This document shows positions 6,094 to 63,508 of a stretch of 64,000 bases of DNA, in pieces. This DNA is from a virus: positions 22,013-86,012 of IMG/VR virus record IMGVR_UViG_3300025769_015982; one strand, given 5' to 3'. Below the pieces are notes generated by a model. That model was given only the letters and a program-made list of their open reading frames with translations. It did no database searches and had not been told where the DNA came from. The stretch's first letter is position 1. The number at the start of each line of letters is the position of its first letter. The position numbers and the translations under genes are program-made.

Positions 6094-6341
6094 AAAAGTT
6101 TTTATATTTTAGTGCCCCATGGTGTGGGCCCTGTAAACAATTAGGTCCAATTATGGATGAACTTCAAGCAGAAGGATATACAGTCCAAAAAATCGATGTA
6201 GATTCTAACCCAGAAATCTGCCAATCGTTTAGTGTCAGAAATGTCCCAACAGTTGTCTTACAAGTAGATAACGTAGAAAAGGGAAGAAAGCTTGGCCTTA
6301 ACCCAAAGAATACATATATTGACCTATATAATCAGGTTTAA
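6090..6341 (+). CDS. Thioredoxin/glutaredoxin-like protein
   Basis: 83 residues, a minimal thioredoxin fold. The active site is WCGPCKQ and the cis-proline is in NVPTVVL. It probably supplies electrons to ribonucleotide reductase or reduces phage proteins; T4 carries a comparable small redoxin. No reductase gene is visible in this window. Its stop overlaps the polymerase start by one base. Confidence 0.88.
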   Translation: MKKFLYFSAPWCGPCKQLGPIMDELQAEGYTVQKIDVDSNPEICQSFSVRNVPTVVLQVDNVEKGRKLGLNPKNTYIDLYNQV

Positions 6342-8056: not shown

Positions 8057-8322
8057 TGGAATTAACACCACAATCTATAAGGAATAATGTTTTTATCGAA
8101 TTAAATGACGAATACATTAAAAAAGAACATGTAATAGAATTAAGCAAAAGTTGGAATGATAAACAGATTTCTTATTTTCGTAAAATGCTAAAACAAGGGG
8201 GTAGTTTAAAAATTAATGGTAATTCTTTTAAAATCACCATTAATGATAGTATAATCTTAAACTCCCGTGGGGAGAAAGATGGTGGTATTATTACCATTCC
8301 AGGAATAGATGAAAGATTTTAA
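8056..8322 (+). CDS. Small protein inserted between the two polymerase genes
   Basis: 88 residues of unknown family: a helical N-terminal half and a strand-rich C-terminal half (SLKINGNSFKITINDS). Its ATG shares a base with the stop of the first polymerase part, and four bases separate its stop from the second part. No HNH, GIY-YIG or LAGLIDADG motif is visible, so it is not a recognisable homing endonuclease. It may be a replacement of one, or may help the polymerase halves join; both ideas are speculation. Confidence 0.75.
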   Translation: MELTPQSIRNNVFIELNDEYIKKEHVIELSKSWNDKQISYFRKMLKQGGSLKINGNSFKITINDSIILNSRGEKDGGIITIPGIDERF

Positions 8323-8326
8323 GTAA

Positions 8327-51394: not shown

Positions 51395-51439
51395 ACTGAC
51401 AAAACGATCAGTCAGTCATGAGGGGGCTTCGGCCCCCTC
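51395..51439. terminator. Stem-loops and UUCG terminator after hsp20
   Basis: ACTGAC (51395-51400) pairs with GTCAGT (51411-51416), then GAGGGGGC-TTCG-GCCCCCTC (51420-51439) forms an 8-pair stem with a stable UUCG loop. There is no clear T run, so read-through or processing is possible. It ends the hsp20 transcript. Confidence 0.75.
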
Positions 51440-51462
51440 AATATTTATATATAAACAATAAG
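51440..51462 (+). promoter_or_regulatory. Candidate promoter, AT-rich (TATATATAAAC)
   Basis: Between the terminator and the ATG at 51465 is AATATTTATATATAAAC. It has a TATATAAA core, similar but not equal to the T4 late promoter TATAAATA. No -33 element at the usual distance. May be a late promoter; not verifiable here. Confidence 0.35.
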
Positions 51463-51464
51463 AT

Positions 51465-51707
51465 ATGTCTACATTTAACGTATACGAATGGAACCACAAA
51501 CGCCGTTTAAGCGAGATAGAAGAACAAGCTGAAGGAAAAGTTTATGTTGTAATAGCAGGGAGACCAGGAGAAGCTCAAGGCCCCGTTAAAGCATTTATGG
51601 ATAAAGCTTCTGCCGAACAACACGCTGCCCAATTTAAACAGGAGTACGAAGACCGTTTTGTAGGGGATAAATTAAATACTGTAGTGAGAGAAATACCTAT
51701 GGGGTAA
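51465..51707 (+). CDS. Hypothetical protein
   Basis: 80 residues. NVYEWNHKRRLSEIEEQAEGKVYVVIAGRPGEAQGP suggests a small alpha/beta protein, then a basic helix. No known family; overlaps the next gene by 1 nt. Confidence 0.65.
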   Translation: MSTFNVYEWNHKRRLSEIEEQAEGKVYVVIAGRPGEAQGPVKAFMDKASAEQHAAQFKQEYEDRFVGDKLNTVVREIPMG

Positions 51708-51931
51708 TGAGTAAATTAAGAAAATACATTAGAGAGTACGTTATGTATCTCTATAATGCTAAAGTTGCAGATGCTGATGAAGATTATCAGTGGAAACACC
51801 CTAGCGATATAGAACACCCACTACAACCTGGTTATCCAGGTGATTTAAAAGGGTTCCCTTACGATAGTTCCCAAAACAAACTACCACCCGCTTATATAAG
51901 GAAAAGATCGGTTGCTAAACCACCTTTTTAA
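51707..51931 (+). CDS. Hypothetical protein
   Basis: 74 residues. The start SKLRKYIREYVMYLYN is an amphipathic helix seen at the end or start of many phage proteins; the rest is Pro-rich and disordered. The stop codon touches the stem of the following terminator. Confidence 0.65.
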   Translation: MSKLRKYIREYVMYLYNAKVADADEDYQWKHPSDIEHPLQPGYPGDLKGFPYDSSQNKLPPAYIRKRSVAKPPF

Positions 51932-51952
51932 GAGAGCCTTTGGCTCTCTTTT
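51931..51952 (+). terminator. Rho-independent terminator overlapping a promoter
   Basis: AGAGAGCC-TTT-GGCTCTCT followed by TTTATTTT: an 8-pair stem. The loop TTT with the next GG gives the TTTGG -33 box of the promoter at 51939. This dual use recurs at 59974. Confidence 0.85.
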
Positions 51953-51968
51953 ATTTTGTTCGTATATT
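51939..51968 (+). promoter_or_regulatory. Promoter of the MoxR-like gene
   Basis: TTTGG at 51939-51943, then 20 bases after the TTG, then TATATT at 51963-51968 (CGTATATTC), seven bases before the ATG at 51975. Same CGTATATT core as eleven other sites from 54967 to 63508 (one as CGTATGTT). Short A-rich leader, no Shine-Dalgarno. Confidence 0.75.
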
Positions 51969-51974
51969 CACAGT

Positions 51975-53105
51975 ATGAACTATAAGAACATTCTAAGAGG
52001 ATATTACGATACAGAAAATAAAGTTAAAGCAATAGATGTAATGTCAGATCAACCTTATTATATTGAGGATAGACCTGACATGAAACAACGTATTGAACGA
52101 GCTATTAATTTCAAACAGTATCTAGCCATATATCAACGTGGTACTCGCAATGGCTTTGAGTATATTAACCAAAACGATATAGTTTGGGGTGACCAAACAA
52201 CTACACAACCAAAAGAAGTTACAATGATAAATAAGCCAGACGATTTTATTATTAGCGACCTTAAGTGGAAGTACTTAACTCGCTGTATTAATAAGGGTAA
52301 AAACCTTATGTTTGTAGGACCTGCAGGTACAGGTAAAACACAGATTGTTTTTGAAGCCGCTAAGGCAATTAAAAAGCCAATCTTCTATTTTAATTTAGGA
52401 TCTACTCAAGATGTTCGTTCGGCTCTTATTGGTAGTACTTATTTTAAAAACGGTACATATTTTGAAGAATCCGCGTTTGTGAACGCGATAAAAACACCAG
52501 GATCTGTGGTTTTACTTGACGAAATTTCGCGAGCAAACCCTGAGGCATGGAATATATTGATGCCAGTTCTTGACGTTAATATACGCAAATTAAGATTAGA
52601 TGAAAAAGAAAACAGCCCTGTTATTGATGTCGCTGATAGTGTCAGCTTCATTTCTACAGCCAATATTGGGTTTGAGTATACTTCAGCTCGTATGCTCGAC
52701 CGCGCTTTGGCTGATCGCTTTAACGTTGTTGAAATGGATACTCTGGATAAGGAAGAGGAGATGAAATTGCTAGCTATGAAGCACCCAGACCTTAAATCAG
52801 AAATAAATGAGGCGTTATGTGATATTAGTTTTAAAATTAGAATGGAATGTCAAAGGGAGAATGCTAAGTTATCAAATGTATTATCAACTAGGACATTGCT
52901 TGAAGCAGCTGAAATGTCAGTTGATGGGTTTAGTATTGAAGAAATAGCTGAATTAATTTTATATCCTCAATACCCAGATGATGGAGGAGTTGATTCAGAA
53001 CGTATTTATATTCGACAATTGGTACAAAAATATGTTCAACAAGGTAATAAAGAAAATCTATTTACTGAAGATGATTTTGCCCACTTAGATAACTATGACA
53101 TTTAA
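51975..53105 (+). CDS. MoxR/CobS-like AAA+ ATPase
   Basis: 376 residues starting at ATG 51975; the open frame extends upstream to 51912 but that part crosses the terminator and promoter. Walker A VGPAGTGKTQIV, Walker B VLLDEISRANPEAWN, sensor FISTANIG and arginine finger DRFN. The domain is that of MoxR/CbbQ/CobS ATPases that remodel partner complexes, normally with a von Willebrand A protein. No such partner is recognised nearby. Overlaps the next gene by 11 nt. Confidence 0.85.
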   Translation: MNYKNILRGYYDTENKVKAIDVMSDQPYYIEDRPDMKQRIERAINFKQYLAIYQRGTRNGFEYINQNDIVWGDQTTTQPKEVTMINKPDDFIISDLKWKYLTRCINKGKNLMFVGPAGTGKTQIVFEAAKAIKKPIFYFNLGSTQDVRSALIGSTYFKNGTYFEESAFVNAIKTPGSVVLLDEISRANPEAWNILMPVLDVNIRKLRLDEKENSPVIDVADSVSFISTANIGFEYTSARMLDRALADRFNVVEMDTLDKEEEMKLLAMKHPDLKSEINEALCDISFKIRMECQRENAKLSNVLSTRTLLEAAEMSVDGFSIEEIAELILYPQYPDDGGVDSERIYIRQLVQKYVQQGNKENLFTEDDFAHLDNYDI

Positions 53106-53661
53106 AAAAGACTATATAGAAGTTTGTTTAACCACAGGGGATGGCATCCAACACCTTAGATTACATGGGTGGCTGAAACGTGAACATGTATTAGTTAAAT
53201 CAGAACAGATATTTGGTAAAAGTGGAGACGACTTTGGTATGTTTATTGTTGTAATTCCTAACGGTGAATTGTATCAATTAGTAGAATTAAAAGATGATAT
53301 GTTTACTACTTTTGAGATATTATCTCAAGAAGAAGAACGGTGGACATCATATAAACAGAAACGAGATAAAGATTTTATAGAAAACATTTCTAATTTTATG
53401 TTTAGTTTGGCCCCTGAAAATAAAGTTGATATTGAAAGTTTTGTTGAAAAAGCAAACGAGGCAACACTTAGTTTATTTAAATCATCTAGAGATTTTACAG
53501 GGGATTATGTTGTAAATGATTTTATGTCTGTTGAAGAAAAAGTAGCTGATCTTGATATGTTAATTGATTTTTTTGAAAATAAAGAACGTTATGAAGACTG
53601 TGCTTATCTTCTTAAAATAAAAGATAAAATAGTAGTAAATGAAGAATTCAAAACAAAATGA
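53095..53661 (+). CDS. Hypothetical protein with UVR-like motif
   Basis: 188 residues. N-terminal beta-rich part (VCLTTGDGIQHLRLHGWL), central helical part, and C-terminal SVEEKVADLDMLIDFFENKERYEDCAYLLKIKD resembling a UVR hairpin as in UvrB/ClpC. Might interact with the AAA+ ATPase encoded just upstream; this is inferred from adjacency only. Confidence 0.68.
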   Translation: MTFKKDYIEVCLTTGDGIQHLRLHGWLKREHVLVKSEQIFGKSGDDFGMFIVVIPNGELYQLVELKDDMFTTFEILSQEEERWTSYKQKRDKDFIENISNFMFSLAPENKVDIESFVEKANEATLSLFKSSRDFTGDYVVNDFMSVEEKVADLDMLIDFFENKERYEDCAYLLKIKDKIVVNEEFKTK

Positions 53662-53668
53662 TTATTGG

Positions 53669-53686
53669 ATAAGTACTTGTACTTAT
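53669..53686. repeat. Perfect inverted repeat centred on a -33 element
   Basis: ATAAGTAC and GTACTTAT, 8 bases each, with TT between. The TTG at 53677-53679 lies at its centre and 20-22 bases from the TATATATTTA box at 53700. It may be an operator or a stem-loop combined with promoter. Confidence 0.55.
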
Positions 53687-53709
53687 GACATTGGAATAGT
53701 ATATATTTA
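53677..53709 (+). promoter_or_regulatory. Putative promoter with TATATATTTA box
   Basis: TTG at 53677, then about 22 bases, then TATATT at 53702-53707, with an ATG at 53713. Weak match compared with the CGTATATT promoters, but correctly placed in a gap between genes. Confidence 0.45.
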
Positions 53710-53712
53710 CAA

Positions 53713-53886
53713 ATGAGAGAGTTTGGATTACGGTTAAAAAAAGCGTACATTATAAAAATAAAATGGAAACGAGCAGTTAAACAATGGTTCAACCATAACT
53801 CTGAACCACTTCATAAACTAAGAAAACAATTAAACAAAATAAACCATGAGCTTAGACAAATTAGACGCCGCCAGAAAGCATTATGA
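53713..53886 (+). CDS. Small basic hypothetical protein
   Basis: 57 residues, Lys/Arg-rich helix (LRLKKAYIIKIKWKRAVKQW and NHELRQIRRRQKAL). Overlaps the following gene by 41 nt out of frame, which is longer than usual here and lowers confidence; a truncated version is possible. Confidence 0.45.
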   Translation: MREFGLRLKKAYIIKIKWKRAVKQWFNHNSEPLHKLRKQLNKINHELRQIRRRQKAL

Positions 53887-54091
53887 AGGCATCGCAGCAG
53901 AAGCAGAGGTAACGATAGACACATACCTAAATTTTTCCGTTGGAATCGGTGAACACTCAAATGTAATGGAAGAATTGCGCGCTCAAATCGAGAAACTCGG
54001 CGAAGCCCGTGACGCCATTGATACGATTATTACTCTCCAGAACAGAGATAAAAAAAATGACTTAAAAGCTAAAAAACAACTTAATAGCTAA
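53846..54091 (+). CDS. Hypothetical protein
   Basis: 81 residues, almost entirely helical with coiled-coil-like heptads (VMEELRAQIEKLGEARDAIDTII) and a basic tail. No family recognised. Confidence 0.65.
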   Translation: MSLDKLDAARKHYEGIAAEAEVTIDTYLNFSVGIGEHSNVMEELRAQIEKLGEARDAIDTIITLQNRDKKNDLKAKKQLNS

Positions 54092-54097
54092 GGAAGA

Positions 54098-54289
54098 ATG
54101 AGTAATGTGAATTGGATAATGGGGTTTTTGGTCCTATTAGCTTTATATGGTAGTGTGTTACCCCCAGATAGTACTGGCCATTATTTAGATTATAATGGTG
54201 ATGGTGTTATTGATCTTTATGATCTTATGGAACATTTAACAAAACGACCACAAGTAATAGAAAATACAACAGATTTTACAGATAAATGA
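54098..54289 (+). CDS. Membrane-anchored EF-hand/dockerin-like peptide
   Basis: 63 residues. N-terminal hydrophobic helix (WIMGFLVLLALYGSVL), then DYNGDGVIDLYD, a complete calcium-loop pattern (D1, N3, D5, G6, I8, D9, D12). A single EF-hand or half-dockerin on a membrane anchor is uncommon. May bind calcium at the cell surface or pair with another copy. Confidence 0.72.
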   Translation: MSNVNWIMGFLVLLALYGSVLPPDSTGHYLDYNGDGVIDLYDLMEHLTKRPQVIENTTDFTDK

Positions 54290-54507
54290 AAAAGTTTTGG
54301 GCAGACCTTAGTGATGTGTTTATTGAACGAGAACGAGCATACCTCGTTTGTAACGATCAAGCACAATTTTTTAGTGGCTTAAGCGGGGGTAAACCTGTAT
54401 TTAGCGAATCTTATGATGACGCTAGGCCTTTACAAAGAGAAAGCCAATTTAGAAATTTGGTTAGGGCATCGGATGTTCCTATATTTAAGGAGTATATTGA
54501 AAAATGA
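54286..54507 (+). CDS. Hypothetical protein
   Basis: 73 residues. Mostly alpha/beta with ERAYLVCNDQAQFF and a C-terminal FKEYIEK. No family recognised. Overlaps the EF-hand gene by 4 nt. Confidence 0.62.
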   Translation: MKKFWADLSDVFIERERAYLVCNDQAQFFSGLSGGKPVFSESYDDARPLQRESQFRNLVRASDVPIFKEYIEK

Positions 54508-54513
54508 GAATTC

Positions 54514-54681
54514 ATGAGACAGCTAATTGAAATATATAATGAGGCAGCCCAACAATTTGAAGACTTTGCATTTAAACACATTGTACCACGGGTTCTTAAA
54601 GTAGTGGAGATAGCATTACGGTTAACTTTAATCTATGCTTTCTATCTCCTTTTTAAAAATGGTATTAACGAAGTGCTTTGA
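54514..54681 (+). CDS. Small membrane protein
   Basis: 55 residues with a charged helical start (RQLIEIYNEAAQQFEDF) and a C-terminal hydrophobic stretch (IALRLTLIYAFYLLF). The stop TGA overlaps the TTG start of the next gene. Confidence 0.55.
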   Translation: MRQLIEIYNEAAQQFEDFAFKHIVPRVLKVVEIALRLTLIYAFYLLFKNGINEVL

Positions 54682-54965
54682 GCAAGAATTTAGTATATTA
54701 CTTTGACCTACATAAGCATCTTGAAGTTAAAATGGCTACTGGTGAATGGAATCAAGTCACTTGTGCTACATTTAGGTCATATGCTGGAGGTAGACGTATT
54801 AATGGTGAAGCATATGATGGTCCCATTTTATACCATAGTACGAATTATTTATATGAAGGTCCCCTTAATGGGAAAATAATTCAACTTGAAGAAGGGCAAG
54901 ATGTTAAAATACTTAGGAAAGTAAGAAAAAATAGTAGGTTTTCCTGGGCAAATGAATGGAGTTAG
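54678..54965 (+). CDS. Hypothetical protein
   Basis: 95 residues; starts with TTG in the TTGA overlap of the previous stop. Beta-rich (LVYYFDLHKHLEVKMATGE). No family recognised. Confidence 0.65.
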   Translation: MSKNLVYYFDLHKHLEVKMATGEWNQVTCATFRSYAGGRRINGEAYDGPILYHSTNYLYEGPLNGKIIQLEEGQDVKILRKVRKNSRFSWANEWS

Positions 54966-54966
54966 A

Positions 54967-54998
54967 TTTTTGGTTTACTGAAAATTTGTTCGTATATT
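54967..54998 (+). promoter_or_regulatory. Promoter (TTTTGG ... CGTATATTTA)
   Basis: TTTTTGG at 54967, 20 bases after the TTG, TATATT at 54993-54998 with CG before it; ATG at 55005. Same family as 51939, 55647, 56888, 58621 and the later series. Confidence 0.78.
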
Positions 54999-55004
54999 TA
55001 AGGT

Positions 55005-55274
55005 ATGAGAAAAGGAAGACAAAAAGGCCAAACTAAGGCTAAAAGTGTAATTAATGACCCATCAATAGCCCCCTTTAAGATATTGATAGAGGAAGACCAG
55101 TATGTTTTAATTGATGATAAAGATATCCCCCGTGGCTATTATACATCATTAGACACAGTAGTATATAGGATATCAAAGATATTTATGGCTAATAAAAGGA
55201 AGGAATTTAACCTTTCAGAATTTGTGGTTGATTATAACAAAACTAAAAATAGTATTTTAGATAGCTTTAACTAA
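55005..55274 (+). CDS. Hypothetical protein
   Basis: 89 residues. Basic N-terminus (RKGRQKGQTKAKS) then an alpha/beta part with a YVLIDDKDIPRGYYTSLDT hairpin. No family recognised. Linked by TAATG to the next small gene. Confidence 0.68.
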   Translation: MRKGRQKGQTKAKSVINDPSIAPFKILIEEDQYVLIDDKDIPRGYYTSLDTVVYRISKIFMANKRKEFNLSEFVVDYNKTKNSILDSFN

Positions 55275-55450
55275 TGCTAAAAGATGAAGACCATATCAGA
55301 GCGTTAATTAAGATTGAAATGAAGGATAACCTCAAAATCCTAATTGACCCAAAGAAAAAAAATAGCTTTTCTGATTCACGAGTTACCACATGGATTCACA
55401 CAGTAACTGAACGTATTGTTTACCATTTAATGGAAAGAAATAAATCATAA
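55274..55450 (+). CDS. Small hypothetical protein
   Basis: 58 residues, helical (EDHIRALIKIEMKDNLKILI; TWIHTVTERIVYHLMER). Both ends are coupled (TAATG) with neighbours, which supports it as a real gene. Confidence 0.6.
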   Translation: MLKDEDHIRALIKIEMKDNLKILIDPKKKNSFSDSRVTTWIHTVTERIVYHLMERNKS

Positions 55451-55644
55451 TGGCTAGGGACGGATCCTATATTACACCTGTTGTAGTAACATTTAAGACA
55501 TCAAATCGCTCCAATGCTAAAACTAAAGTGAAAGTGATTCGCAACAGAAACATTGACGAGGTATTAGATGTAAAGACAAAAATTCCTGGCATCCCCGAAA
55601 AGGCTGTTATTTTGGAAATCGGAGTAGGAAAGAGTTTTACTTAA
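55450..55644 (+). CDS. Small hypothetical protein
   Basis: 64 residues, strand-rich (ITPVVVTFKTSNRSNAKTKVKVIR). No family recognised; last gene before the next promoter. Confidence 0.62.
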   Translation: MARDGSYITPVVVTFKTSNRSNAKTKVKVIRNRNIDEVLDVKTKIPGIPEKAVILEIGVGKSFT

Positions 55645-55646
55645 AC

Positions 55647-55677
55647 TTTTGGTTTACCAGCCAATCTATCGTATATT
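55647..55677 (+). promoter_or_regulatory. Promoter (TTTTGG ... CGTATATTTA)
   Basis: TTTTGG at 55647-55652, 20 bases after the TTG, TATATT at 55672-55677. Precedes the DUF932 gene, with an unusually long leader of about 35 nt (AGAAGAAAG, A-rich). Confidence 0.78.
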
Positions 55678-55715
55678 TAGAGAAGAAAGTTAGTTAAAAA
55701 CCTAAAAAAAGTATC

Positions 55716-56606
55716 ATGTCTGAAGTACAAGACACACAATTTTCAACTGCACAGCAGTTAATTAATACGGTTAATCAGAAAATCGAAAACCGTGAATCGC
55801 TCACTATGGATGAATTGAAGATGATTTGTCCTGAAATTTCAACCCCCGAAATTAATCCTGAATTGCGTAAGCACTTGGGTATTTCGGACAAATATGTTCA
55901 CGTACCTACTGAGCAGGTGATTGAGGATGTTATGAAGTTGGGTTGGTCGCCTATCAATGCGTACCGTGTTAATTCACGTAAAAAGCGCAATGGCGTTGGT
56001 CGTCATATGATCAAGTTTGTCAACTATGACTTTATGCAAGAGGGTAAAACCGAATACCCTGAGTTGCTGTTGACAAACAGTCACGATGGTACTACTGCAT
56101 TTAAGTTGGATGTAGGTATTTTCCGTTTGGTGTGTTCGAATGGTATGGTTATTAAGTCGCAGGACTTTGGTTCAATGAAGGTTCGTCACTACGGTTACGA
56201 CTTTGAAACTATTAAGGGTGCTGTAAATAAGTTGGTTGAACAGATTCCTGATTACCTCAAGCAAGTTGAAGATATGAAGGAGCAGGAATTGGAGCGTAAA
56301 CAAATGCTTGAGTTTGCTCGTGAAGCAGCTTTGCTTCGTTTCAAGACAGCTAATATTGAAACGATTGATAAGTTAGTTGATGTAGATGATTTGCTTGAGT
56401 CGACTCGTAAGGAAGACGAGGGTAATGGTTTGTGGGAGGTATTCAACCGCCTACAGGAAAAAGTTGTGAATGGTAAATTTAATTATGCCCTGGGTAAAAA
56501 GGAACGTAAGGCCCGTCCCGTGAAGGGTTTCAAGTCGCAGGTAAAGCTCAATCAGGATTTGTGGGAGTTAGCGAGCAGTTACTTGCCTGAAGCCGCAGCG
56601 GTTTAA
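55716..56606 (+). CDS. DUF932-like phage/plasmid protein
   Basis: 296 residues. SRKKRNGVGRHMIKFVN and LLTNSHDGTTAFKLDVGIFRLVCSNGMVI are the DUF932 hallmark (N-S-H-D-G-x-x-A ... R-L-V-C-x-N). The family, common in phages and plasmids, has no known biochemical function. A long charged coil follows in the C-terminal half. G-rich codon choice (TTG, CGT) contrasts with the sugar cluster. Confidence 0.82.
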   Translation: MSEVQDTQFSTAQQLINTVNQKIENRESLTMDELKMICPEISTPEINPELRKHLGISDKYVHVPTEQVIEDVMKLGWSPINAYRVNSRKKRNGVGRHMIKFVNYDFMQEGKTEYPELLLTNSHDGTTAFKLDVGIFRLVCSNGMVIKSQDFGSMKVRHYGYDFETIKGAVNKLVEQIPDYLKQVEDMKEQELERKQMLEFAREAALLRFKTANIETIDKLVDVDDLLESTRKEDEGNGLWEVFNRLQEKVVNGKFNYALGKKERKARPVKGFKSQVKLNQDLWELASSYLPEAAAV

Positions 56607-56614
56607 ATATAGGA

Positions 56615-56640
56615 GAGGGGGGCCTCGGCCCCCCTCATTT
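56615..56640. terminator. Bidirectional terminator between DUF932 and the minus-strand lipoprotein
   Basis: GAGGGGGG-CCTCGG-CCCCCCTC forms an 8-pair GC stem followed by ATTT on the plus strand; on the other strand the lipoprotein stop at 56645 is 9 bases away. It probably ends both converging transcripts. Confidence 0.78.
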
Positions 56641-56644
56641 CCAT

Positions 56645-56794
56645 TTATTCATCACTATTCCATGTGTAAATTTCCCCGTCGGGCATCATGACATAGTTAG
56701 TAACAGTTTGGTTTTGGCTAGTAGATTGTGTAATACTAGTAGTTGCGCAACCCGTTAAACACAATACTACTGCGATTGCAAGTAAGTATTTCAT
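56645..56794 (-). CDS. Small phage lipoprotein
   Basis: 49 residues, minus strand, the only convincing gene in that direction. Signal peptide MKYLLAIAVVLCLTGC with a perfect LTGC lipobox at residues 13-16, then a Ser/Thr/Gln-rich stretch and an NYVMMPDGEIYTW end. Such tiny lipoproteins in phages act as superinfection-exclusion or outer-membrane spanin (Rz1-like) partners; neither partner is nearby. AT-rich upstream sequence (56795-56880) includes TATATT boxes on its strand. Confidence 0.75.
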   Translation of the reverse strand: MKYLLAIAVVLCLTGCATTSITQSTSQNQTVTNYVMMPDGEIYTWNSDE

Positions 56795-56887
56795 GTAGTT
56801 GGGTTTTTAATTCGATTATACATATATAAGTAATATACAAGTTATAATAGAGTCATAAAGCGTCATATGAAAGAGTTTATTTAGAAA

Positions 56888-56917
56888 TTTGGTTTTAAGG
56901 ATAGAAGATCGTATATT
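56888..56917 (+). promoter_or_regulatory. Promoter (TTTGG ... CGTATATTTA)
   Basis: TTTGG at 56888, 20 bases after the TTG, TATATT at 56912-56917. Drives the 56953 gene and perhaps the tRNA cluster after it. Confidence 0.78.
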
Positions 56918-56952
56918 TAATAAAGAAAGAAGGTTGAGAAAATAAAAACAAC

Positions 56953-57144
56953 ATGAAAAACCCAATCACCATTAACGCAACAAAGTATCCAGATGGATAT
57001 TTGCCTAAGATTGCTTACCACATTGCAAACCAAAATGCTGACAAGTTGGAATACTTTACAGACCAACATGAAGCATTGTATGGTAAGTTGACACAGGAGG
57101 ATATGCACAAAGTAATTGATATGGTGTATGAACATATAAAATAA
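56953..57144 (+). CDS. Small hypothetical protein
   Basis: 63 residues, mostly helical (AYHIANQNADKLEYFTDQ and KLTQEDMHKVIDMVYEH). No family recognised. Immediately precedes the first tRNA. Confidence 0.62.
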   Translation: MKNPITINATKYPDGYLPKIAYHIANQNADKLEYFTDQHEALYGKLTQEDMHKVIDMVYEHIK

Positions 57145-57150
57145 ATGAAT

Positions 57151-57236
57151 GCCCGGGTGGTGGAATTGGTAGACACGACAGACTTAAAATCTGTTTCGCC
57201 GAACGGTGAGTGCGGGTTCGAGCCCCGCCCCGGGTA
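57151..57236 (+). tRNA. tRNA-Leu (anticodon TAA)
   Basis: 86-nt cloverleaf with a long variable arm. Acceptor GCCCGGG/CCCGGGT, anticodon arm ACAGA-CTTAAAA-TCTGT (TAA), T arm with GGTTCGAGCCC. No encoded CCA. Confidence 0.9.
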
Positions 57237-57331
57237 CATAATAAATCCTCAGACGTGGGGTCGGTGGAATCAGGCATGGTTCATGTAAGGGATAAATGGG
57301 GATAGCTTCCTCACCCAGCAAGCCGCAATAT
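57237..57331 (+). other. Spacer between tRNA-Leu and tRNA-Arg
   Basis: 95 bases without a recognised gene. Contains GGGG and CCCTCA runs that could pair, but no full cloverleaf is visible. May be a degraded tRNA or a processing spacer. Confidence 0.4.
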
Positions 57332-57405
57332 GCGCTCATAGCTCAGCTGGATAGAGCAACAGCCTTCTAAGCTGTAGGTCCTAGGTTCGAATCCTAGTGG
57401 GCGTA
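57332..57405 (+). tRNA. tRNA-Arg (anticodon TCT)
   Basis: Acceptor GCGCTCA/TGGGCGT, anticodon arm ACAGC-CTTCTAA-GCTGT (TCT), T arm AGGTTCGAATCCT. Reads AGA, a frequent arginine codon in this AT-rich phage. Confidence 0.9.
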
Positions 57406-57479
57406 CTGGAGTTCTTTGACATCCTGGTTTTTAATTCGCTGATGACGTCACTACGTAATTAAACGTGACGCACCAATAT
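57406..57479 (+). other. Spacer with a hairpin between tRNA-Arg and tRNA-Ile
   Basis: CGTCAC (57446-57451) pairs with GTGACG (57465-57470) around a 13-base loop, next to a palindromic TGACGTCA. Otherwise no gene seen. Confidence 0.4.
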
Positions 57480-57553
57480 GGGGACGTAGCTCAATTGGTT
57501 AGAGCATCAAGCTTATATCTTGAAGGTCACAGGTTCAATTCCTGTCGTCCCTA
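57480..57553 (+). tRNA. tRNA-Ile (anticodon TAT)
   Basis: Acceptor GGGGACG/CGTCCCT, anticodon arm TCAAG-CTTATAT-CTTGA (TAT, reads ATA), T arm AGGTTCAATTCCT. ATA is very common in the sugar cluster. Confidence 0.88.
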
Positions 57554-57557
57554 CTAT

Positions 57558-57631
57558 GACTTCGTAGCTCAGTTGGTTAGAGCATCTCACTTTTAATGAG
57601 AGGGTCCTGGGTTCGAGTCCCAGCGGGGTTA
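57558..57631 (+). tRNA. tRNA-Lys (anticodon TTT)
   Basis: Acceptor GACTTCG/CGGGGTT with G-U pairs, anticodon arm TCTCA-CTTTTAA-TGAGA (TTT), T arm GGGTTCGAGTCCC. Reads AAA. Confidence 0.88.
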
Positions 57632-57658
57632 CGCGTGTGAGGCGAATTAATGCTAGGC

Positions 57659-57733
57659 GGCTCCTTAGCTCAGTTGGTTCAGAGCACCTCGTTTACACCG
57701 AGGGGGTCATTGGTTCGAGTCCAATAGGAGCTA
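57659..57733 (+). tRNA. tRNA-Val (anticodon TAC)
   Basis: Acceptor GGCTCCT/AGGAGCT, anticodon arm CCTCG-TTTACAC-CGAGG (TAC), T arm TGGTTCGAGTCCA. Reads GTA. Confidence 0.9.
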
Positions 57734-57739
57734 CAATAT

Positions 57740-57819
57740 ACCCGAGTGGTGAAATGGTAGACACGCTGGTCTTAGGAACCAGTGCCACAGGCGTGAAGGT
57801 TCGAATCCTTTCTCGGGTA
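57740..57819 (+). tRNA. tRNA-Leu (anticodon TAG)
   Basis: Acceptor ACCCGAG/CTCGGGT, anticodon arm CTGGT-CTTAGGA-ACCAG (TAG), variable arm longer than class I, T arm AGGTTCGAATCCT. Reads CTA. The sixth tRNA; all six read A-ending codons. Confidence 0.88.
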
Positions 57820-57842
57820 CAAATTAAACAAAAATAAATAAT

Positions 57843-58010
57843 ATGAAAAAATTTGTAAAATGGACCCCAGTAGCAATCGCACTAATAGCATTGCTCTACT
57901 CAGTAGGATTAGGAATGAATGGCCACACTGAAGAAGCACTATATTCATCACATTGGCCTGTAACACTATTAGTATTTTATTTGGTAATTGATAAGATTAA
58001 CAAGCAATGA
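57843..58010 (+). CDS. Small membrane protein
   Basis: 55 residues with two hydrophobic stretches (PVAIALIALLYSVGLGM and PVTLLVFYLVIDK). The start lies 23 bases after the last tRNA; its stop overlaps the next start (ATGA). Confidence 0.6.
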   Translation: MKKFVKWTPVAIALIALLYSVGLGMNGHTEEALYSSHWPVTLLVFYLVIDKINKQ

Positions 58011-58261
58011 GCACAACTATGTGGATTGTAGGTAGCATTATTTTTGTTGTCTACATGTATTTTACAATTTGGAACATTAATAATGGTTCCAAACAAACCC
58101 AACAACGTGAAGATTCATCATATGATGTAATGGATATGGACGGTATGGGTAATTTTAGTCGTTTTCCAATTAAACAACGTCGAATGGAGGAATTTGGTTA
58201 TAGAAAAGTTTTCTATAATGATAAAAAGACCAATGCAAGGAAGAAGAAAAAAACAGTATGA
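58007..58261 (+). CDS. Small membrane protein
   Basis: 84 residues: one N-terminal membrane helix (MWIVGSIIFVVYMYFTIW) then a polar, basic tail ending KTNARKKKK. No family recognised. Confidence 0.62.
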   Translation: MSTTMWIVGSIIFVVYMYFTIWNINNGSKQTQQREDSSYDVMDMDGMGNFSRFPIKQRRMEEFGYRKVFYNDKKTNARKKKKTV

Positions 58262-58346
58262 GGACAATTGGTGGATGTTAGAAAAAGCAGGTAAGTGCTT
58301 TTTGGTCTCCCTAATCTTCTATCTTATATTCATAGTTGTAAGTTAA
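58233..58346 (+). CDS. Tiny membrane protein
   Basis: 37 residues, starting inside the previous gene in another frame. Basic start then a hydrophobic helix (KCFLVSLIFYLIFIVV). Possible; supported mainly by tiling. Confidence 0.45.
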   Translation: MQGRRKKQYEDNWWMLEKAGKCFLVSLIFYLIFIVVS

Positions 58347-58348
58347 AG

Positions 58349-58474
58349 ATGGAGATAGTATCAAATTCTAGTGGTTATTGGATTGTAGATAAAGGATTTA
58401 TTGATGGTCCTTATGTTAACATCGAATTAGCTACAGAAGCACTTGAAGAAATAAAAAAATGGCAAAAGAAGTAA
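58349..58474 (+). CDS. Tiny hypothetical protein
   Basis: 41 residues (GYWIVDKGFIDGPYVNIE hairpin and an ALEEIKKWQKK helix). Followed with 16-nt overlap by the next small gene. Confidence 0.5.
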   Translation: MEIVSNSSGYWIVDKGFIDGPYVNIELATEALEEIKKWQKK

Positions 58475-58617
58475 ACATAGTAACACTATGCAATGAGATT
58501 TTTAACGGTCTTGAAGTTAAAGGGTGTGGTATGTCACCTATTAAAGCAGCTGAAGGTGGTTACAACGGAACGTTTGTTAACATTGTATTTGATGCTTTAG
58601 AAAAAGCGAAAAGATAA
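58459..58617 (+). CDS. Small hypothetical protein
   Basis: 52 residues, helical with two Cys (TLCNEIFNGLEVKGCGM). Ends directly before the next promoter. No family recognised. Confidence 0.55.
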   Translation: MAKEVNIVTLCNEIFNGLEVKGCGMSPIKAAEGGYNGTFVNIVFDALEKAKR

Positions 58618-58620
58618 GGA

Positions 58621-58651
58621 TTTTTGGAAACTGAAAACTCGATCGTATATT
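58621..58651 (+). promoter_or_regulatory. Promoter of the RecA-fold ATPase gene
   Basis: TTTTTGG, 19 bases, TATATT at 58646-58651 (CGATCGTATATTTA), then an A-rich leader of about 46 nt with no Shine-Dalgarno. Core GATCGTATATT is shared with the later series. Confidence 0.8.
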
Positions 58652-58697
58652 TAAGAAGTAAGATTGAGAGATAGTTAAACACACAAAACAAAACAAA

Positions 58698-59480
58698 ATG
58701 GCTGGACGTGGACGACCCCGTAAAAATGCTGTTACACCTAAGACGGTGTTGAAGCATGTAGAATTTACAAAGATGAAGGATATCAAGTTTGATCCTTCGT
58801 TGTTTACCCCTATTAAAACAGGTACTATTGTTGATAGTGTTTTAAGTAATGAAGGTGGTATTTTCCCTGGCACTAATACTGTTGTTATTGGTGACCCAGG
58901 TGTGGGTAAGAGTACTGTATTGCTTGATTTGCTTGCTAATTTTCAGGCAAATAATAAGCGTGTATTGTTTATCTCTGGTGAGATGAATGAGATTGACATG
59001 TTTGGTTATGTTAAGCGTTTTCCTAAATTCGCCCAAATTCCTATTTTGTTTATGCAAAATTACTCTTCATGTCCACAAGCTGCTATTGAAAAGTCGCTTG
59101 ATCAAGGATTTGATGTTGTATTGATTGATAGTTGGGCTGAGGTGAATGATATGGTTCAGGAAGAAAATGGTTGGACACGTAAGAAGGCTGAATCATGGTT
59201 GCTTGATTTGATGGATAAGCACAATAAAGCTGATAATGAGCGTTGTAAACATACTGCATTTGTCAATATCCAACAAATGACTAAGGGTGGTGATTTTGCA
59301 GGTTCAAACCGTATTAAGCACATGACTACAGCTATGGCCCAACTTAAGTTTGATGGCCGCGGGCGTGATGCTTTGCGTTACATGGTATTTAGTAAAAACC
59401 GTCGTGGTGATGTGGGTGATAAAATTTATTTCTCACTTGTTAGGGCGGGTAATGTTCGATACAGTTTTGAACAACTATAA
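58698..59480 (+). CDS. RecA/DnaB/RadA-fold ATPase with N-terminal AT-hook
   Basis: 260 residues. Walker A IGDPGVGKSTVLLDLL (about residue 70), LFISGEMNEIDM, Walker B VVLIDSWAEV, and FVNIQQMTKGGDFAGS (motif 3). The layout is that of DnaB/RadA/KaiC-type proteins (SGEM is also the RadA type). The start MAGRGRPRKN is an AT-hook, like the tail of the protein at 1-236. Possible replicative helicase or recombination ATPase; without a hexamerisation domain the role is open. Confidence 0.82.
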   Translation: MAGRGRPRKNAVTPKTVLKHVEFTKMKDIKFDPSLFTPIKTGTIVDSVLSNEGGIFPGTNTVVIGDPGVGKSTVLLDLLANFQANNKRVLFISGEMNEIDMFGYVKRFPKFAQIPILFMQNYSSCPQAAIEKSLDQGFDVVLIDSWAEVNDMVQEENGWTRKKAESWLLDLMDKHNKADNERCKHTAFVNIQQMTKGGDFAGSNRIKHMTTAMAQLKFDGRGRDALRYMVFSKNRRGDVGDKIYFSLVRAGNVRYSFEQL

Positions 59481-59499
59481 AGATTTGTTTTGTGTTGTT

Positions 59500-59540
59500 G
59501 TAGAGGAGGGTGCTGGAGCTTCGGCTCCGCCCCTCTGATA
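59500..59540. terminator. Terminator-like stem-loop with UUCG loop
   Basis: GGAGC-TTCG-GCTCC (59515-59528) with an outer AGAGG/CCTCT helix (59502-59536). Ends the ATPase transcript. Confidence 0.7.
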
Positions 59541-59561
59541 CTAATTTAATTTGAATTCCCT

Positions 59562-59592
59562 CTGACTGAAAGTCAGTCAGTTTATTTTGTTT
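59562..59592 (+). terminator. Stem-loop with T-rich tail
   Basis: CTGACTGA-AAG-TCAGTCAG (59562-59580), a perfect 8-pair stem, then TTTATTTTGTTT. A second terminator behind the first, just before the 59613 gene. Confidence 0.68.
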
Positions 59593-59612
59593 AACCCTTA
59601 ACCCCAAAAATC

Positions 59613-59831
59613 ATGGCTAAGGATAACCCCACTAAAGCCGGCGGCATGCGTCGGTTTGATGAACTTGTTGCTTTGCGCAGCGTATTTGGAAACGATTCAG
59701 TTCTACTTGAAGAATTGGTTCGTGTAATGTCAAATCGTGATGCGAGTTATTTGTTTAGGCGTGTTGCTAAGTCGTTTGATGTGACAGGTGCTCTGAATCG
59801 AGAACTCGATGTCATCAATCAACGTGACTGA
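59613..59831 (+). CDS. Hypothetical protein
   Basis: 72 residues, helical (LLEELVRVMSNRDASYLFRRVAKSF). No family recognised. No clear promoter; the preceding sequence is pyrimidine-rich. Confidence 0.62.
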   Translation: MAKDNPTKAGGMRRFDELVALRSVFGNDSVLLEELVRVMSNRDASYLFRRVAKSFDVTGALNRELDVINQRD

Positions 59832-59989
59832 TGCTTGACATAGTCGATCGGAATAAGCTCAAAATGGAGCTTTACAAGAATGGTGTAAGCGAAGCTAGGC
59901 AACGTGAAATCATTCAGATGTTGGAAGCCGATGAGGAACAAAGATTCCTCTTGGACATTAAAAGTGAACGAGCAGATGAGGACCTTTGA
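59831..59989 (+). CDS. Small hypothetical protein
   Basis: 52 residues, charged, helical (GVSEARQREIIQMLEADEEQRF). Coupled by TGATG to the preceding gene; its last codons lie in the stem of the following terminator. Confidence 0.58.
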   Translation: MLDIVDRNKLKMELYKNGVSEARQREIIQMLEADEEQRFLLDIKSERADEDL

Positions 59990-60000
59990 GTCCTCATCTT
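59974..60000 (+). terminator. Terminator with -33 element in the loop
   Basis: GATGAGGAC-CTTTGA-GTCCTCATC then TTTCGTT. The loop TTTG is the -33 box of the promoter at 59984-60013. Same dual architecture as at 51931. Confidence 0.78.
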
Positions 60001-60013
60001 TCGTTCGTATGTT
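59984..60013 (+). promoter_or_regulatory. Promoter with CGTATGTT variant box
   Basis: TTTG from the terminator loop (59985-59988), 19 bases after the TTG, TATGTT at 60008-60013. One base differs from the CGTATATT core. ATG of the next gene at 60035. Confidence 0.65.
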
Positions 60014-60034: not shown

Positions 60035-60268
60035 ATGAGTTTATTAGATGAATTGAGAAATGTTAAAGTGCTTGCACTTATTGATGACCATAAAAAGAAC
60101 TACCCATCGTCACATAAAAAGATAATGGATGATCTAAAGAACTCAGAGTTCATTGGTGATCTATCAGTGTTCACAGCACAAAATTTGATTAGTTTTGCTG
60201 TTGATAGTGGAATGAAATTTGATACTGATAGTTTTGTTTTGAAATTGTATAAAATTTTTGATAAATGA
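60035..60268 (+). CDS. Hypothetical protein
   Basis: 77 residues, helical and acidic to neutral (ALIDDHKKNYPSSHKKIMDDL). No family recognised. Confidence 0.62.
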   Translation: MSLLDELRNVKVLALIDDHKKNYPSSHKKIMDDLKNSEFIGDLSVFTAQNLISFAVDSGMKFDTDSFVLKLYKIFDK

Positions 60269-60405: not shown

Positions 60406-60572
60406 CCCGAAATGAATTATTTGATGTGCTCAATGAAATGATTGATCACGTTGGTACTGATGGTGTATTAGATGAATTAACACGAGCCATGTCTACAGAC
60501 GAATTAGAAGAACATGTGAGTCATCTTGATCAATATCTTTTTGATAATCATTTTTTGACCCTTGAAAGCTGA
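60402..60572 (+). CDS. Small acidic hypothetical protein
   Basis: 56 residues, acidic helical (VLNEMIDHVGTDGVLDELTRAMS). Its end overlaps the -33 element of the next promoter. Confidence 0.55.
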   Translation: MTRNELFDVLNEMIDHVGTDGVLDELTRAMSTDELEEHVSHLDQYLFDNHFLTLES

Positions 60573-60590
60573 AAATTCGATCGTATATTA
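60561..60590 (+). promoter_or_regulatory. Promoter, GATCGTATATT series
   Basis: CTTGAAAGC ... ATTCGATCGTATATTA. TTG, 19 bases, TATATT at 60584-60589. First of six near-identical copies with an ATTCGATCGTATATT or GTTCGATCGTATATT core. Confidence 0.8.
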
Positions 60591-60602
60591 AAATAAAAAA
60601 AG

Positions 60603-60782
60603 ATGAGTAAGTTAACAAAATTTGAAAAAGCGCTTATCAGCGCTGGGTTGGAAGCAGTTAAGTCTCAATACGCAGAAGAAAACGAGCGTATCAAAGCAGC
60701 AGGTAATAATCCCATCTTTGGTGACAATTACATCCCAACTATCGTAGAAAATATTACTCACACTTTGAAACTGAACGACTAA
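60603..60782 (+). CDS. Small hypothetical protein
   Basis: 59 residues, helical (FEKALISAGLEAVKSQYAEENER). Coupled by one base to the next gene (TAATG). Confidence 0.58.
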   Translation: MSKLTKFEKALISAGLEAVKSQYAEENERIKAAGNNPIFGDNYIPTIVENITHTLKLND

Positions 60783-60967
60783 TGAGCAACATGAGTTATT
60801 GTCGATTTGAAAACACAATGATCGACCTAAAAGATTGTTTGCGTCATATTGATTATGAAGCAGAAAACAGCCGTGATGAAGAGGCACGTCAAGAAATGCT
60901 TGGAATGTTCAAAGAAATTTTTGAGGATTGGGGCGGGGATGTTGAGCAATACGCCTTGTATCTCTAA
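60782..60967 (+). CDS. Conserved small early phage protein (MSYCRFENT type)
   Basis: 61 residues. SYCRFENTMIDLKDCLRHI is a motif I recall in many small phage early proteins, followed by an acidic helix. Function unknown. Confidence 0.68.
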   Translation: MSNMSYCRFENTMIDLKDCLRHIDYEAENSRDEEARQEMLGMFKEIFEDWGGDVEQYALYL

Positions 60968-60984
60968 AAAAATTAATTTAGCCC

Positions 60985-61014
60985 CTTGTAAACTGAAAAT
61001 TCGATCGTATATTA
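60985..61014 (+). promoter_or_regulatory. Promoter, GATCGTATATT series
   Basis: CTTGTAAACTG ... ATTCGATCGTATATTA; TTG then 19 bases then TATATT at 61008-61013. ATG at 61027. Confidence 0.8.
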
Positions 61015-61026
61015 AAATAAAAAAAG

Positions 61027-61422
61027 ATGGCAACACGAGCAAGCATTAAAATCAGCGACTGCGATGGTAACTTCATTGCAAACATTTATCACCACTACGA
61101 TGGTTACCCTGAGGGGTTGGGTCAGAAATTGATTGACATTTGTGACAGTGGTAAACTTGTAAATGGATTGAGCGCTGGATCAGGTAAACAGTTCAATGGT
61201 TTCAACGATTTAGCTTGTTCAATTGTGTTTGAATTGAAAGAACACTCGGGCAATGGTCGTGTTTATTTGAACACTGAAGACGATTATGGGAAATGTGGTG
61301 AAGATTACCTGTATGAAATTGTTGAAAATCCTGCAATGCGTCAATCACCACTAGTGTTGGTTGAAAATATGAATGGTGAAACTGAATTGGTTCAAGACAT
61401 TTTGGATCGAGTAAATGCCTAA
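61027..61422 (+). CDS. Conserved small phage protein (HHYDGYPEG type)
   Basis: 131 residues. MATRASIKISDCDGNF then IYHHYDGYPEGLGQKLIDI, a family I recall in several phages and plasmids, with an open function. The C-terminal part is acidic. Confidence 0.72.
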   Translation: MATRASIKISDCDGNFIANIYHHYDGYPEGLGQKLIDICDSGKLVNGLSAGSGKQFNGFNDLACSIVFELKEHSGNGRVYLNTEDDYGKCGEDYLYEIVENPAMRQSPLVLVENMNGETELVQDILDRVNA

Positions 61423-61425
61423 CAA

Positions 61426-61602
61426 ATGCTAGATAAAATTAAGTCAAAACTACTTACTAAACTGTTCGTTGATTGGGTTAACGATGAGTTTGATGTTGAA
61501 TTGTTGGAAGCAAGTAAATTGATGATCCAAAACAGGCAGGAGCAAGTTAATTTTTTGGTGGCAAAAGCTAATCCGCCTGAGAAAATTGGTTTTCGATATT
61601 AA
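61426..61602 (+). CDS. Small hypothetical protein
   Basis: 58 residues, helical (KLFVDWVNDEFDVELLEASKLM). No family recognised. Confidence 0.55.
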   Translation: MLDKIKSKLLTKLFVDWVNDEFDVELLEASKLMIQNRQEQVNFLVAKANPPEKIGFRY

Positions 61603-61620
61603 AGGAAATTGATTGAGACG

Positions 61621-61650
61621 CTTGTGGCTTGAAGATTCGATCGTATATTA
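61621..61650 (+). promoter_or_regulatory. Promoter, GATCGTATATT series
   Basis: CTTGTGGCTTGAAGATTCGATCG then TATATT at 61644-61649. ATG at 61663. Confidence 0.8.
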
Positions 61651-61662
61651 AAATAAAAAAGG

Positions 61663-62178
61663 ATGGATAAGTCAATGGAAAGTGTGATGTGGCAAGTGGT
61701 TGAAGATATGAACTTCAATGGGCGTGGTCATCACAAAGCAGGATTGTATTTAACTGATGAATCAGGTTTGTCGGTTGATGGGATGCGAAAGGTTGAGTCA
61801 TTTGCTCGCCGCAAATGTGGCGCACTGTATAGTCAATTGATTGATGTTACAGGTGTGAGTGACGATAGTTATGACGATTTGCGGTGGCAGATTGTTGCCA
61901 ATGGTGAGGAGTTTTACAATAACATCACATTGGAAAAGGCTCAGAGCATGATTGACAACAATGAGTTCACTGAGAGCTTTGGTTATGCGTTCCACAAGAT
62001 TGATGAAATGGAAAGGACGGATGAACGTGAACAGCAGCTTGCTTACGTTGAGCGTTGTCGTCAAGGAATACATGGTAGCTTTTATAAAGCGCTTGTTGAT
62101 GCCTTTGATAAAGCTGACAATACTAATAAGATGAGGTTGTCACTTGGTTTTAAAGAAGTTTTTGGAGATATTGTTTGA
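61663..62178 (+). CDS. Hypothetical protein
   Basis: 171 residues, helical and acidic, with ARRKCGALYSQLIDVTGVSDDSYDD and EKAQSMIDNNEF. No family recognised. Fairly long for the region, so likely functional in early infection. Confidence 0.65.
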   Translation: MDKSMESVMWQVVEDMNFNGRGHHKAGLYLTDESGLSVDGMRKVESFARRKCGALYSQLIDVTGVSDDSYDDLRWQIVANGEEFYNNITLEKAQSMIDNNEFTESFGYAFHKIDEMERTDEREQQLAYVERCRQGIHGSFYKALVDAFDKADNTNKMRLSLGFKEVFGDIV

Positions 62179-62180
62179 CC

Positions 62181-62210
62181 CTTGTAGCTTGAAGGTTCGA
62201 TCGTATATTC
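62181..62210 (+). promoter_or_regulatory. Promoter, GATCGTATATT series
   Basis: CTTGTAGCTTGAAGGTTCGATCG then TATATT at 62204-62209. ATG at 62224. Confidence 0.8.
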
Positions 62211-62223
62211 AAATAAAAAACAA

Positions 62224-62535
62224 ATGAAAATTTTCCATTTCCACCTCGATGACGGTATGTCAAATAAGTCAACTTTGATTTGTGAATTGAAGGACGGTGC
62301 AATCAAATATCGTTACTTCACAGGCACTGCTTCGAGTGGCATTCCGCTTGCGTTGAGTAATTTGCAAGTTGGTTACCTCCATGGTTCTACATTGCCACTG
62401 GATAATTCGCATCGCAACGGCCTTTTTAAGTTTACGAAGCAAGAATTTACTGATCGTGTGCGCTGGATCATCAATATGGATAGTACCAAGCGTGTTGTAA
62501 ATGAAGTTGAAACTGAAGTGGTATTTGAAGCATGA
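62224..62535 (+). CDS. Hypothetical protein
   Basis: 103 residues, strand-rich start (IFHFHLDDGMSNKSTLICEL) and a helical tail. No family recognised. Coupled by ATGA to the next gene. Confidence 0.65.
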   Translation: MKIFHFHLDDGMSNKSTLICELKDGAIKYRYFTGTASSGIPLALSNLQVGYLHGSTLPLDNSHRNGLFKFTKQEFTDRVRWIINMDSTKRVVNEVETEVVFEA

Positions 62536-62756
62536 CTAATTTAGAAACAAGCACTGCACCGATTGTTGCAGATCAAGAAGGTGATCACTACTTTATGGTA
62601 GGTGAAACGGTTTACTACTTGAATGAATTTATGAAAACACTTGGTAACCGGGATTTTGATGGTGTCGCTCACATCACTAACCAAGGAGGAATTGGTATTA
62701 AAGTAGATGAAGCGAACGAGGAGGTTGAGTATACTATCTTTACGGCATCTTACTAG
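62532..62756 (+). CDS. Hypothetical protein
   Basis: 74 residues, acidic, strand-rich (HYFMVGETVYYLNEF; GGIGIKVDEANEEVEYTIF). No family recognised. Confidence 0.62.
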   Translation: MTNLETSTAPIVADQEGDHYFMVGETVYYLNEFMKTLGNRDFDGVAHITNQGGIGIKVDEANEEVEYTIFTASY

Positions 62757-62759
62757 ACG

Positions 62760-62789
62760 CTTGTAGCTTGAGAATTCGATCGTATATTC
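62760..62789 (+). promoter_or_regulatory. Promoter, GATCGTATATT series
   Basis: CTTGTAGCTTGAGAATTCGATCG then TATATT at 62783-62788. ATG at 62805. Confidence 0.8.
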
Positions 62790-62804
62790 AACCAAAAAAA
62801 GGAT

Positions 62805-63065
62805 ATGGGATTTAAGTTAAACATCGTAACAAAGACAAAAATGAGTGCAAAGGAAATGTCACGCACTTTGATCACACTGAATCAAAGTGAAGTGTTTAAG
62901 ATGGGACGTAAAACATACGTTCCATTCAGTGCAATGAGTGTTGTGTTTAACAGCAAAGGTGCAACGAAGCAATTCGATAGAGATTTGGATAGCATTACTC
63001 ATCCCACCAAAGGCAAGTTGTTTTGCCTTCCGAAAAATGTTGAACAGTTCATCAAGGTAGTGTGA
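62805..63065 (+). CDS. Hypothetical protein
   Basis: 86 residues, basic helical/strand (KLNIVTKTKMSAKEMSRTLI). No family recognised. The next start overlaps its stop. Confidence 0.62.
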   Translation: MGFKLNIVTKTKMSAKEMSRTLITLNQSEVFKMGRKTYVPFSAMSVVFNSKGATKQFDRDLDSITHPTKGKLFCLPKNVEQFIKVV

Positions 63066-63328
63066 TGAAGCCATTTTATGAATTACGTGACCCAAGTAGG
63101 TTCGCTGAGGTGTTAGATCGGATGATGCACGATGAACCAATGAAGTGGCAAGGTTGGATGATGGATATGGAAACGAATCAACTGTCACTTGAAGCGTTTC
63201 GTAAGTGGTTGAGTTCAGAATGGTACGAAAAGGAATTGCTTAAGGAAGAGTTTCCTGAATTTCACTTCCTTGATGATGATATGTTGGTTTTGGATATGCA
63301 ACATGAACTTTTAGCAACGTTGAATTGA
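63065..63328 (+). CDS. Hypothetical protein
   Basis: 87 residues from ATG 63065 in TGATG; a GTG one codon earlier is also possible. Trp-rich (MKWQGWMMDME; FRKWLSSEWYEK) then acidic. No family recognised. Confidence 0.62.
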   Translation: MKPFYELRDPSRFAEVLDRMMHDEPMKWQGWMMDMETNQLSLEAFRKWLSSEWYEKELLKEEFPEFHFLDDDMLVLDMQHELLATLN

Positions 63329-63483
63329 TGGAGTTTTTTATTACAGGGTTGGTTGAAGTGCTATTTGCAGTTGCTTGTTTAGTAGTAGGAGTAGGACTAG
63401 TTATAGCATTGTCTCAAGCAGGATTTGATAGTGTTCAGAATCGTGCTTATGAGAATAAAAAGAAATGGGATAGGGAAGCTTGA
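63328..63483 (+). CDS. Small membrane protein
   Basis: 51 residues, one hydrophobic helix (GLVEVLFAVACLVVGVGLVI) then a basic tail. Coupled by TGATG; overlaps the next promoter. Confidence 0.58.
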   Translation: MEFFITGLVEVLFAVACLVVGVGLVIALSQAGFDSVQNRAYENKKKWDREA

Positions 63484-63508
63484 CACTTGAGGATTCGATC
63501 GTATATTC
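63480..63508 (+). promoter_or_regulatory. Promoter, GATCGTATATT series
   Basis: TTGACACTTGAGGATTCGATCG then TATATT at 63502-63507. ATG at 63525. Confidence 0.78.

Follow-up and report, generated by a model that had tools for sequence, protein, structure and literature searches.

Can the terminator of one phage gene and the promoter of the next be written over the same bases? Two gene boundaries, called sites A and B herein, raise this question within a 64,000-base stretch of DNA (the window) that corresponds to bases 22013-86012 of an 86,012-base IMG/VR virus record. Genes of the window include T4-like replication genes (family B DNA polymerase and clamp loader), a GroEL gene, a queC-like gene, two carbamoyltransferase genes, and many sugar genes. 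The isolated phage nearest to its DUF932 protein, at 37% identity, is Flavobacterium phage immuto, whose genes are a comparable set and include head genes of T4 type. Because of this relationship and of the promoter type described below, we infer that the host probably belongs to the phylum Bacteroidota. Megablast of the region against isolated phages matched only tRNAs, and Rfam gave no family in the region except six tRNAs; six tRNA genes (Leu, Arg, Ile, Lys, Val, and Leu) are clustered at 57151-57820. Elsewhere in the window, the family B DNA polymerase is split, with ORFs 6341-8056 and 8327-9253 representing successive parts of phrog_262 and an 88-aa ORF of no known family lying between them (6341-9253).

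The features of the two sites are the following.

51707..51931, + strand: 74-aa gene without a family match, upstream of site A; its TAA stop enters the first bases of the hairpin
51930..51950, + strand: terminator-like hairpin of site A, stem AAGAGAGCC/GGCTCTCTT, loop TTT, then TTTATTTTG
51939..51942, + strand: -33 element TTTG of site A; TTT forms the loop, and the 3' arm begins with G
51963..51968, + strand: -7 element TATATT of site A, with TTCG just before it; identical in relatives
51975..53105, + strand: MoxR-like AAA ATPase gene (376 aa), downstream of site A; its ATG lies 6 bases past TATATT
59831..59989, + strand: small gene X (52 aa), upstream of site B; present in the relative L023 and missing from the relative L011
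59976..59999, + strand: terminator-like hairpin of site B, stem GATGAGGAC/GTCCTCATC, loop CTTTGA
59985..59988, + strand: -33 element TTTG of site B, inside the hairpin loop
60008..60013, + strand: -7 element TATGTT of site B, with TTCG just before it
60035..60268, + strand: small gene (77 aa), downstream of site B; 39-44% identity in relatives

An earlier note on this DNA had described terminator stem-loops with TTTG in the loop, 19-20 bases before a -7 element, at both sites, and RNA folding confirms this. Site A spans 51930-51968 with a gap of 20 bases between TTTG and TATATT, and its fold has a stability of -13.3 kcal/mol (z -4.3). Site B spans 59976-60013 with a gap of 19 bases between TTTG and TATGTT; its fold reaches -25.8 kcal/mol (z -7.2), and an additional outer helix (GAACGA/TCGTTC) extends over 59966-60006. 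Both have the anatomy of intrinsic terminators, a stable hairpin followed by a T tract, with tracts that are interrupted and hence imperfect (TTTATTTTG at A and TTTCGTT at B). The -7 region of site A reads TATATTC, so that the third T of the -7 extension (TAnnTTT) is missing. The two sites have no sequence relation to each other. We consider it highly probable that A and B are superposed terminator-promoters; that transcripts end and start there is inferred, as would be any functional coupling of the two events. An ATG exactly 6 bases after TATATT is found both at 51975 and at 55005, and with so short a distance the mRNA of the site A ATPase, like that starting at 55005, is possibly leaderless. 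The TGA stop of gene X (59987-59989) lies in the terminator loop of site B and overlaps the -33 TTTG, and a ribosome terminating there could hinder the hairpin.

The same note had placed a third unit at 53669, where an inverted repeat was said to be centred on a TTG in the same way. This candidate was rejected: the fold of ATAAGTACTTGTACTTAT reaches only -4.1 kcal/mol (z -0.9) and is equalled by 36 of 200 shuffles, there is no T tract, and the best -7 element (TATATTTA) is 22 bases off. The proposed compact unit of terminator and promoter, set between small genes, is therefore supported at two of the three sites and in other phages, as described below, and fails at 53669. A search of the whole 86-kb record for TTG-in-loop hairpins before a -7 element gave 31 TTG-N19/20-TAT[AG]TT matches, and the two with a hairpin loop on the TTG are A and B. 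For comparison, 60 first-order Markov genomes of the same composition contained a single TTG-in-loop unit in total. Since about 10 of 12 promoters in the window carry no hairpin and only two of about 12 are fused, the fused unit is one option rather than the rule.

The -33 element of Bacteroidota sigma-A promoters is TTG or TTTG, and host RNA polymerase would be expected to start some 5-7 bases past the -7 element. We counted promoter spacing in loci fetched by protein homology rather than by promoter pattern, and found TTG 19/20 bases before TCGTATATT at 37 of 74 boxes in the window and its DUF932/RadA-like relatives, 20 of 21 in MoxR loci, and 9 of 12 in immuto, against a background for TTG at any other gap of about 0.2-1.4 per gap. 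This enrichment in unselected loci implies that the -33 element is real in these phages. The arrangement TTG-N19/20-TAtaTT of the phage sites fits the Bacteroidota sigma-A type, for which the -7 consensus is TAnnTTTG (PMC9723704). The phage sites differ from it in using TTCGTATATT, with a less strict last base, and in the RNA hairpin that is written over the -33 element and spacer. At 60562-63508, six other promoters have in common an extended spacer that reads roughly ACnCTTGtagCTTGAgaATTCGATCGTATATT; a small gene follows each of them after 10-25 bases, and they are kept in L023. A phage factor may bind them as a separate early class. Two relatives have the same CGTATGTTTATAGGGTAAGATTAAGAAA at promoters that are not orthologous (L011:13217 and L023:3116), which suggests that promoter pieces could move between sites.

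Read as superposed signals, A and B would work as follows. The RNA of the upstream gene would fold into an intrinsic-terminator hairpin with a U-rich tail, and the same bases, as double-stranded DNA, would form a Bacteroidota-type promoter whose -33 T(T)TG falls in the loop of the hairpin. The loosely constrained spacer of 19-20 bases would accommodate the 3' arm and T tract, with the -7 TAtaTT right after. A terminator can fit over this promoter because the Bacteroidota type needs little between -33 and -7. Transcription from upstream would end some 10-20 bases short of the next start site, and the next module would be started afresh by the host polymerase (sigma-A type), so that about 45 bases would serve both as terminator and as start signal of the next gene. 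Most likely, this ends one transcript and begins the next with the fewest bases.

The two sites differ in how they are shared with relatives. The site A hairpin is kept in L011/L605 (as a G-U variant) and in L012/L606; L011 and L012 have the same neighbour genes there, with 75-80% protein identity. It is absent from more distant MoxR loci, where the promoter is often retained, and a 50%-identical MoxR group (L607-L615) has neither hairpin nor promoter. Being confined to a close clade, this hairpin was ruled out as an ancient feature. A distant blastn search with the site A ATPase gave no matches. Site B is identical to its counterpart in L011 at 57 of 57 positions, with 150-base flanks that are only about 49% and 61% identical, and to that in L023 at 49 of 57, and the hairpin core is the same in both. 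An extra ORF sits between the cassette and the downstream gene in L023. From these comparisons, gene modules are seen to change around a fixed site B cassette, through loss of gene X in L011 and the extra ORF in L023.

The PeSL (promoter early stem-loop), reportedly described by Arbiol et al. in 2010 and Comeau et al. in 2014, two papers cited in PMC4503421, is said to be a composite terminator and promoter between small genes of T4-like phages, and A and B had been likened to it. A PeSL sequence is also said to recur at several places and to serve as a recombination joint. The likeness holds for composition, with a terminator stem-loop and a promoter in one gene gap, and for the genes that come and go beside the cassette at site B. 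It does not extend to geometry. We scanned T4 in three stretches (148.9 of 168.9 kb) and found 50 promoter-like sites, six of which have an upstream terminator; in all six, the hairpin finishes 40-55 bases ahead of the -10, and no contact with the -35 was seen in the 148.9 kb scanned. The T4 hairpin and promoter are juxtaposed and have no common bases, whereas here the -33 element is within the hairpin; the sigma consensus is another one, and there is no sequence relation. The kinship is thus one of composition and module exchange, and the best reading of A and B is the PeSL idea in a new variant suited to the short Bacteroidota promoter. Compared with ordinary intrinsic terminators, they have the same GC-rich stem, short loop, and T tract, and differ in that loop and spacing are constrained by the promoter contained within them. 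A literature search for an overlapping terminator and promoter in such phages, with most subscription journals outside its scope, found none.

Two orthologous boundaries in other phages provide evidence on how the stems evolve. Upstream of a FAD-dehydrogenase-like gene (phrog_12409), at least 19 distinct cassettes have a constant TTGG, T tract, and TCGTATATT with varying stems. When arms were re-dealt among homologues, none of 20,000 permutations reached the observed stability (-19.65 versus -13.94 kcal/mol). In isolated phages this dehydrogenase has remote relatives only, with none in a known Bacteroidota phage. At the boundary after a tail-tube-like gene (T4-like tail; gene assigned by reading its sequence), TTG-N19/20-TATATT was present in 74 of the 80 loci listed. 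At least 43 distinct hairpins carry the promoter there, 41 of them with the middle T of TTG in the loop, and re-dealing of arms again gave none of 20,000 (-17.62 observed versus -12.08 kcal/mol); since the sequences are related, neither permutation count is an exact probability. In an 11-sequence subset of the tail site, six of 10 pairs change on both sides, with a covariation score of 0.48 versus 0.30 when shuffled. On this comparative evidence, stems at the two boundaries change with compensation while TTG, spacing, and -7 box stay. In one tail locus (L764) the hairpin persists although TTG is missing, and in a few others the TATATTTATATA box stands alone, with neither TTG nor hairpin, so the -33 element in the loop may be dispensable at this site.

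An inverted repeat at -33 could instead be a DNA operator or cruciform bound by a regulator, with no role in termination. Dyads centred on -33 occupy the classical operator position, and TGTGGC is invariant in the left arm of the FAD-gene family, as such a reading would have it. Stem sequences nevertheless vary almost freely between sites, and the T tract is on one side only. The pairing itself is also informative, since G-U pairs hold in sense RNA and are mismatched in DNA and antisense RNA. Inside the stems of -33-spanning hairpins we counted 105 G-T versus 13 A-C, mismatches that were treated alike when the stems were drawn, a bias expected only if the sense RNA folds, although part of it is due to T-rich 3' arms and to kinship among the sequences. 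This points to selection on the sense RNA, hence to a terminator, and makes a hairpin in the RNA from upstream a better reading than an operator or cruciform; the latter we regard as the least probable of the alternatives. Only marginally more credible, and still very improbable, is that the hairpin serves only in protecting or processing the upstream mRNA at its 3' end and that termination occurs elsewhere. Hairpins can stabilise mRNA 3' ends, and the imperfect T tracts at A and B would agree with this; the long, clean T tract directly past the stem in most relatives is the mark of an intrinsic terminator.

The superposed terminator-promoter also recurs outside this clade. We scanned IMG/VR, whose contigs are from uncultured phages, with a pattern of TTTG, T tract, and TCGTATATT, and the figures cover the matches listed. 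Many TTTG-centred hairpins were found, with stems unlike one another. A hairpin spans TTTG in 27 of the 83 phage matches listed at spacing 19/20 (T tract present) versus one of the 28 listed at other spacings (p 0.002), and in three of the 38 matches listed from cellular genomes. In a control scan at spacing 21-22, three of 101 hairpins were centred. The isolated phage immuto, whose host is Flavobacterium sp. LMO8, carries three units of this kind, in which TTG belongs to the left arm. They lie at 22069, 64499, and 104391 of NC_055915 and have TATATT or TATCTT as the -7 box. As far as the sequences tell, the fused terminator-promoter recurs at many gene boundaries in other IMG/VR phages, and many related viruses keep or rebuild the fused signal. 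Two phages with the same downstream gene have different fused designs, TTTG in the loop in L206 and TTTGG in the left arm in L363, which suggests repeated invention of the unit.

We also examined 324 non-redundant promoters listed that were chosen without regard to a T tract; in 40 of them, a terminator-like hairpin lies no more than 90 bases away. Thirteen of these hairpins end just upstream, such that their T tract doubles as the T's of the -33 element, and 13 overlie the -33, in which case TTG falls in the loop or in either arm. Base sharing between terminator and promoter therefore takes more than one register. In block shuffles of a larger set that includes the 324, there were 4-13 terminators versus 90 observed. 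These numbers bear on a rival account, in which terminators and promoters are crowded into short gaps and their overlap is accidental and unselected. In its favour, only a minority of promoters are fused, the two registers are equally frequent in the unselected set, and hairpins centred on -33 are scarce when sites are chosen by promoter alone (4 of 254). Against it, the overlap has survived large divergence at both the tail and the FAD-gene boundary, where stems change in a compensating manner. We consider crowding doubtful as a full account, though the strongest of the alternatives; it may explain the origin of the overlap and not its upkeep.

At a superposed terminator-promoter, the polymerase would come to rest on the very promoter that follows, and the next round of initiation could be either helped or impeded by this. 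Single-molecule work on Escherichia coli polymerase indicates that the enzyme, once it has terminated, usually remains on the DNA and is able to restart close by (PMC6978380), and restart can also occur in reverse (PMC6978322). A polymerase releasing the upstream RNA on the next promoter might take up sigma and restart; conversely, a terminating polymerase might block the promoter, so that upstream transcription meters downstream expression. We think such coupling rather unlikely; if it occurs, a single polymerase would be passed from module to module. The units would be natural templates for asking whether evolution uses post-termination restart. In them, the same DNA would have to satisfy two codes at once, that of an RNA fold and that of a promoter, and compensating changes would have upheld both through long periods in an abundant group of phages. 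They could also serve as compact insulator-promoters for Bacteroidota genetics and help to locate operon borders in uncultured phages.

A GC-rich hairpin with a TTCG loop lies at 51419-51465, directly before AATATTTATATATA. Its counterpart in a relative (L024:2095) lies between TTTG and TATATTTATATA, and here terminator and promoter may share bases in yet another register, the -7 element being of late type.
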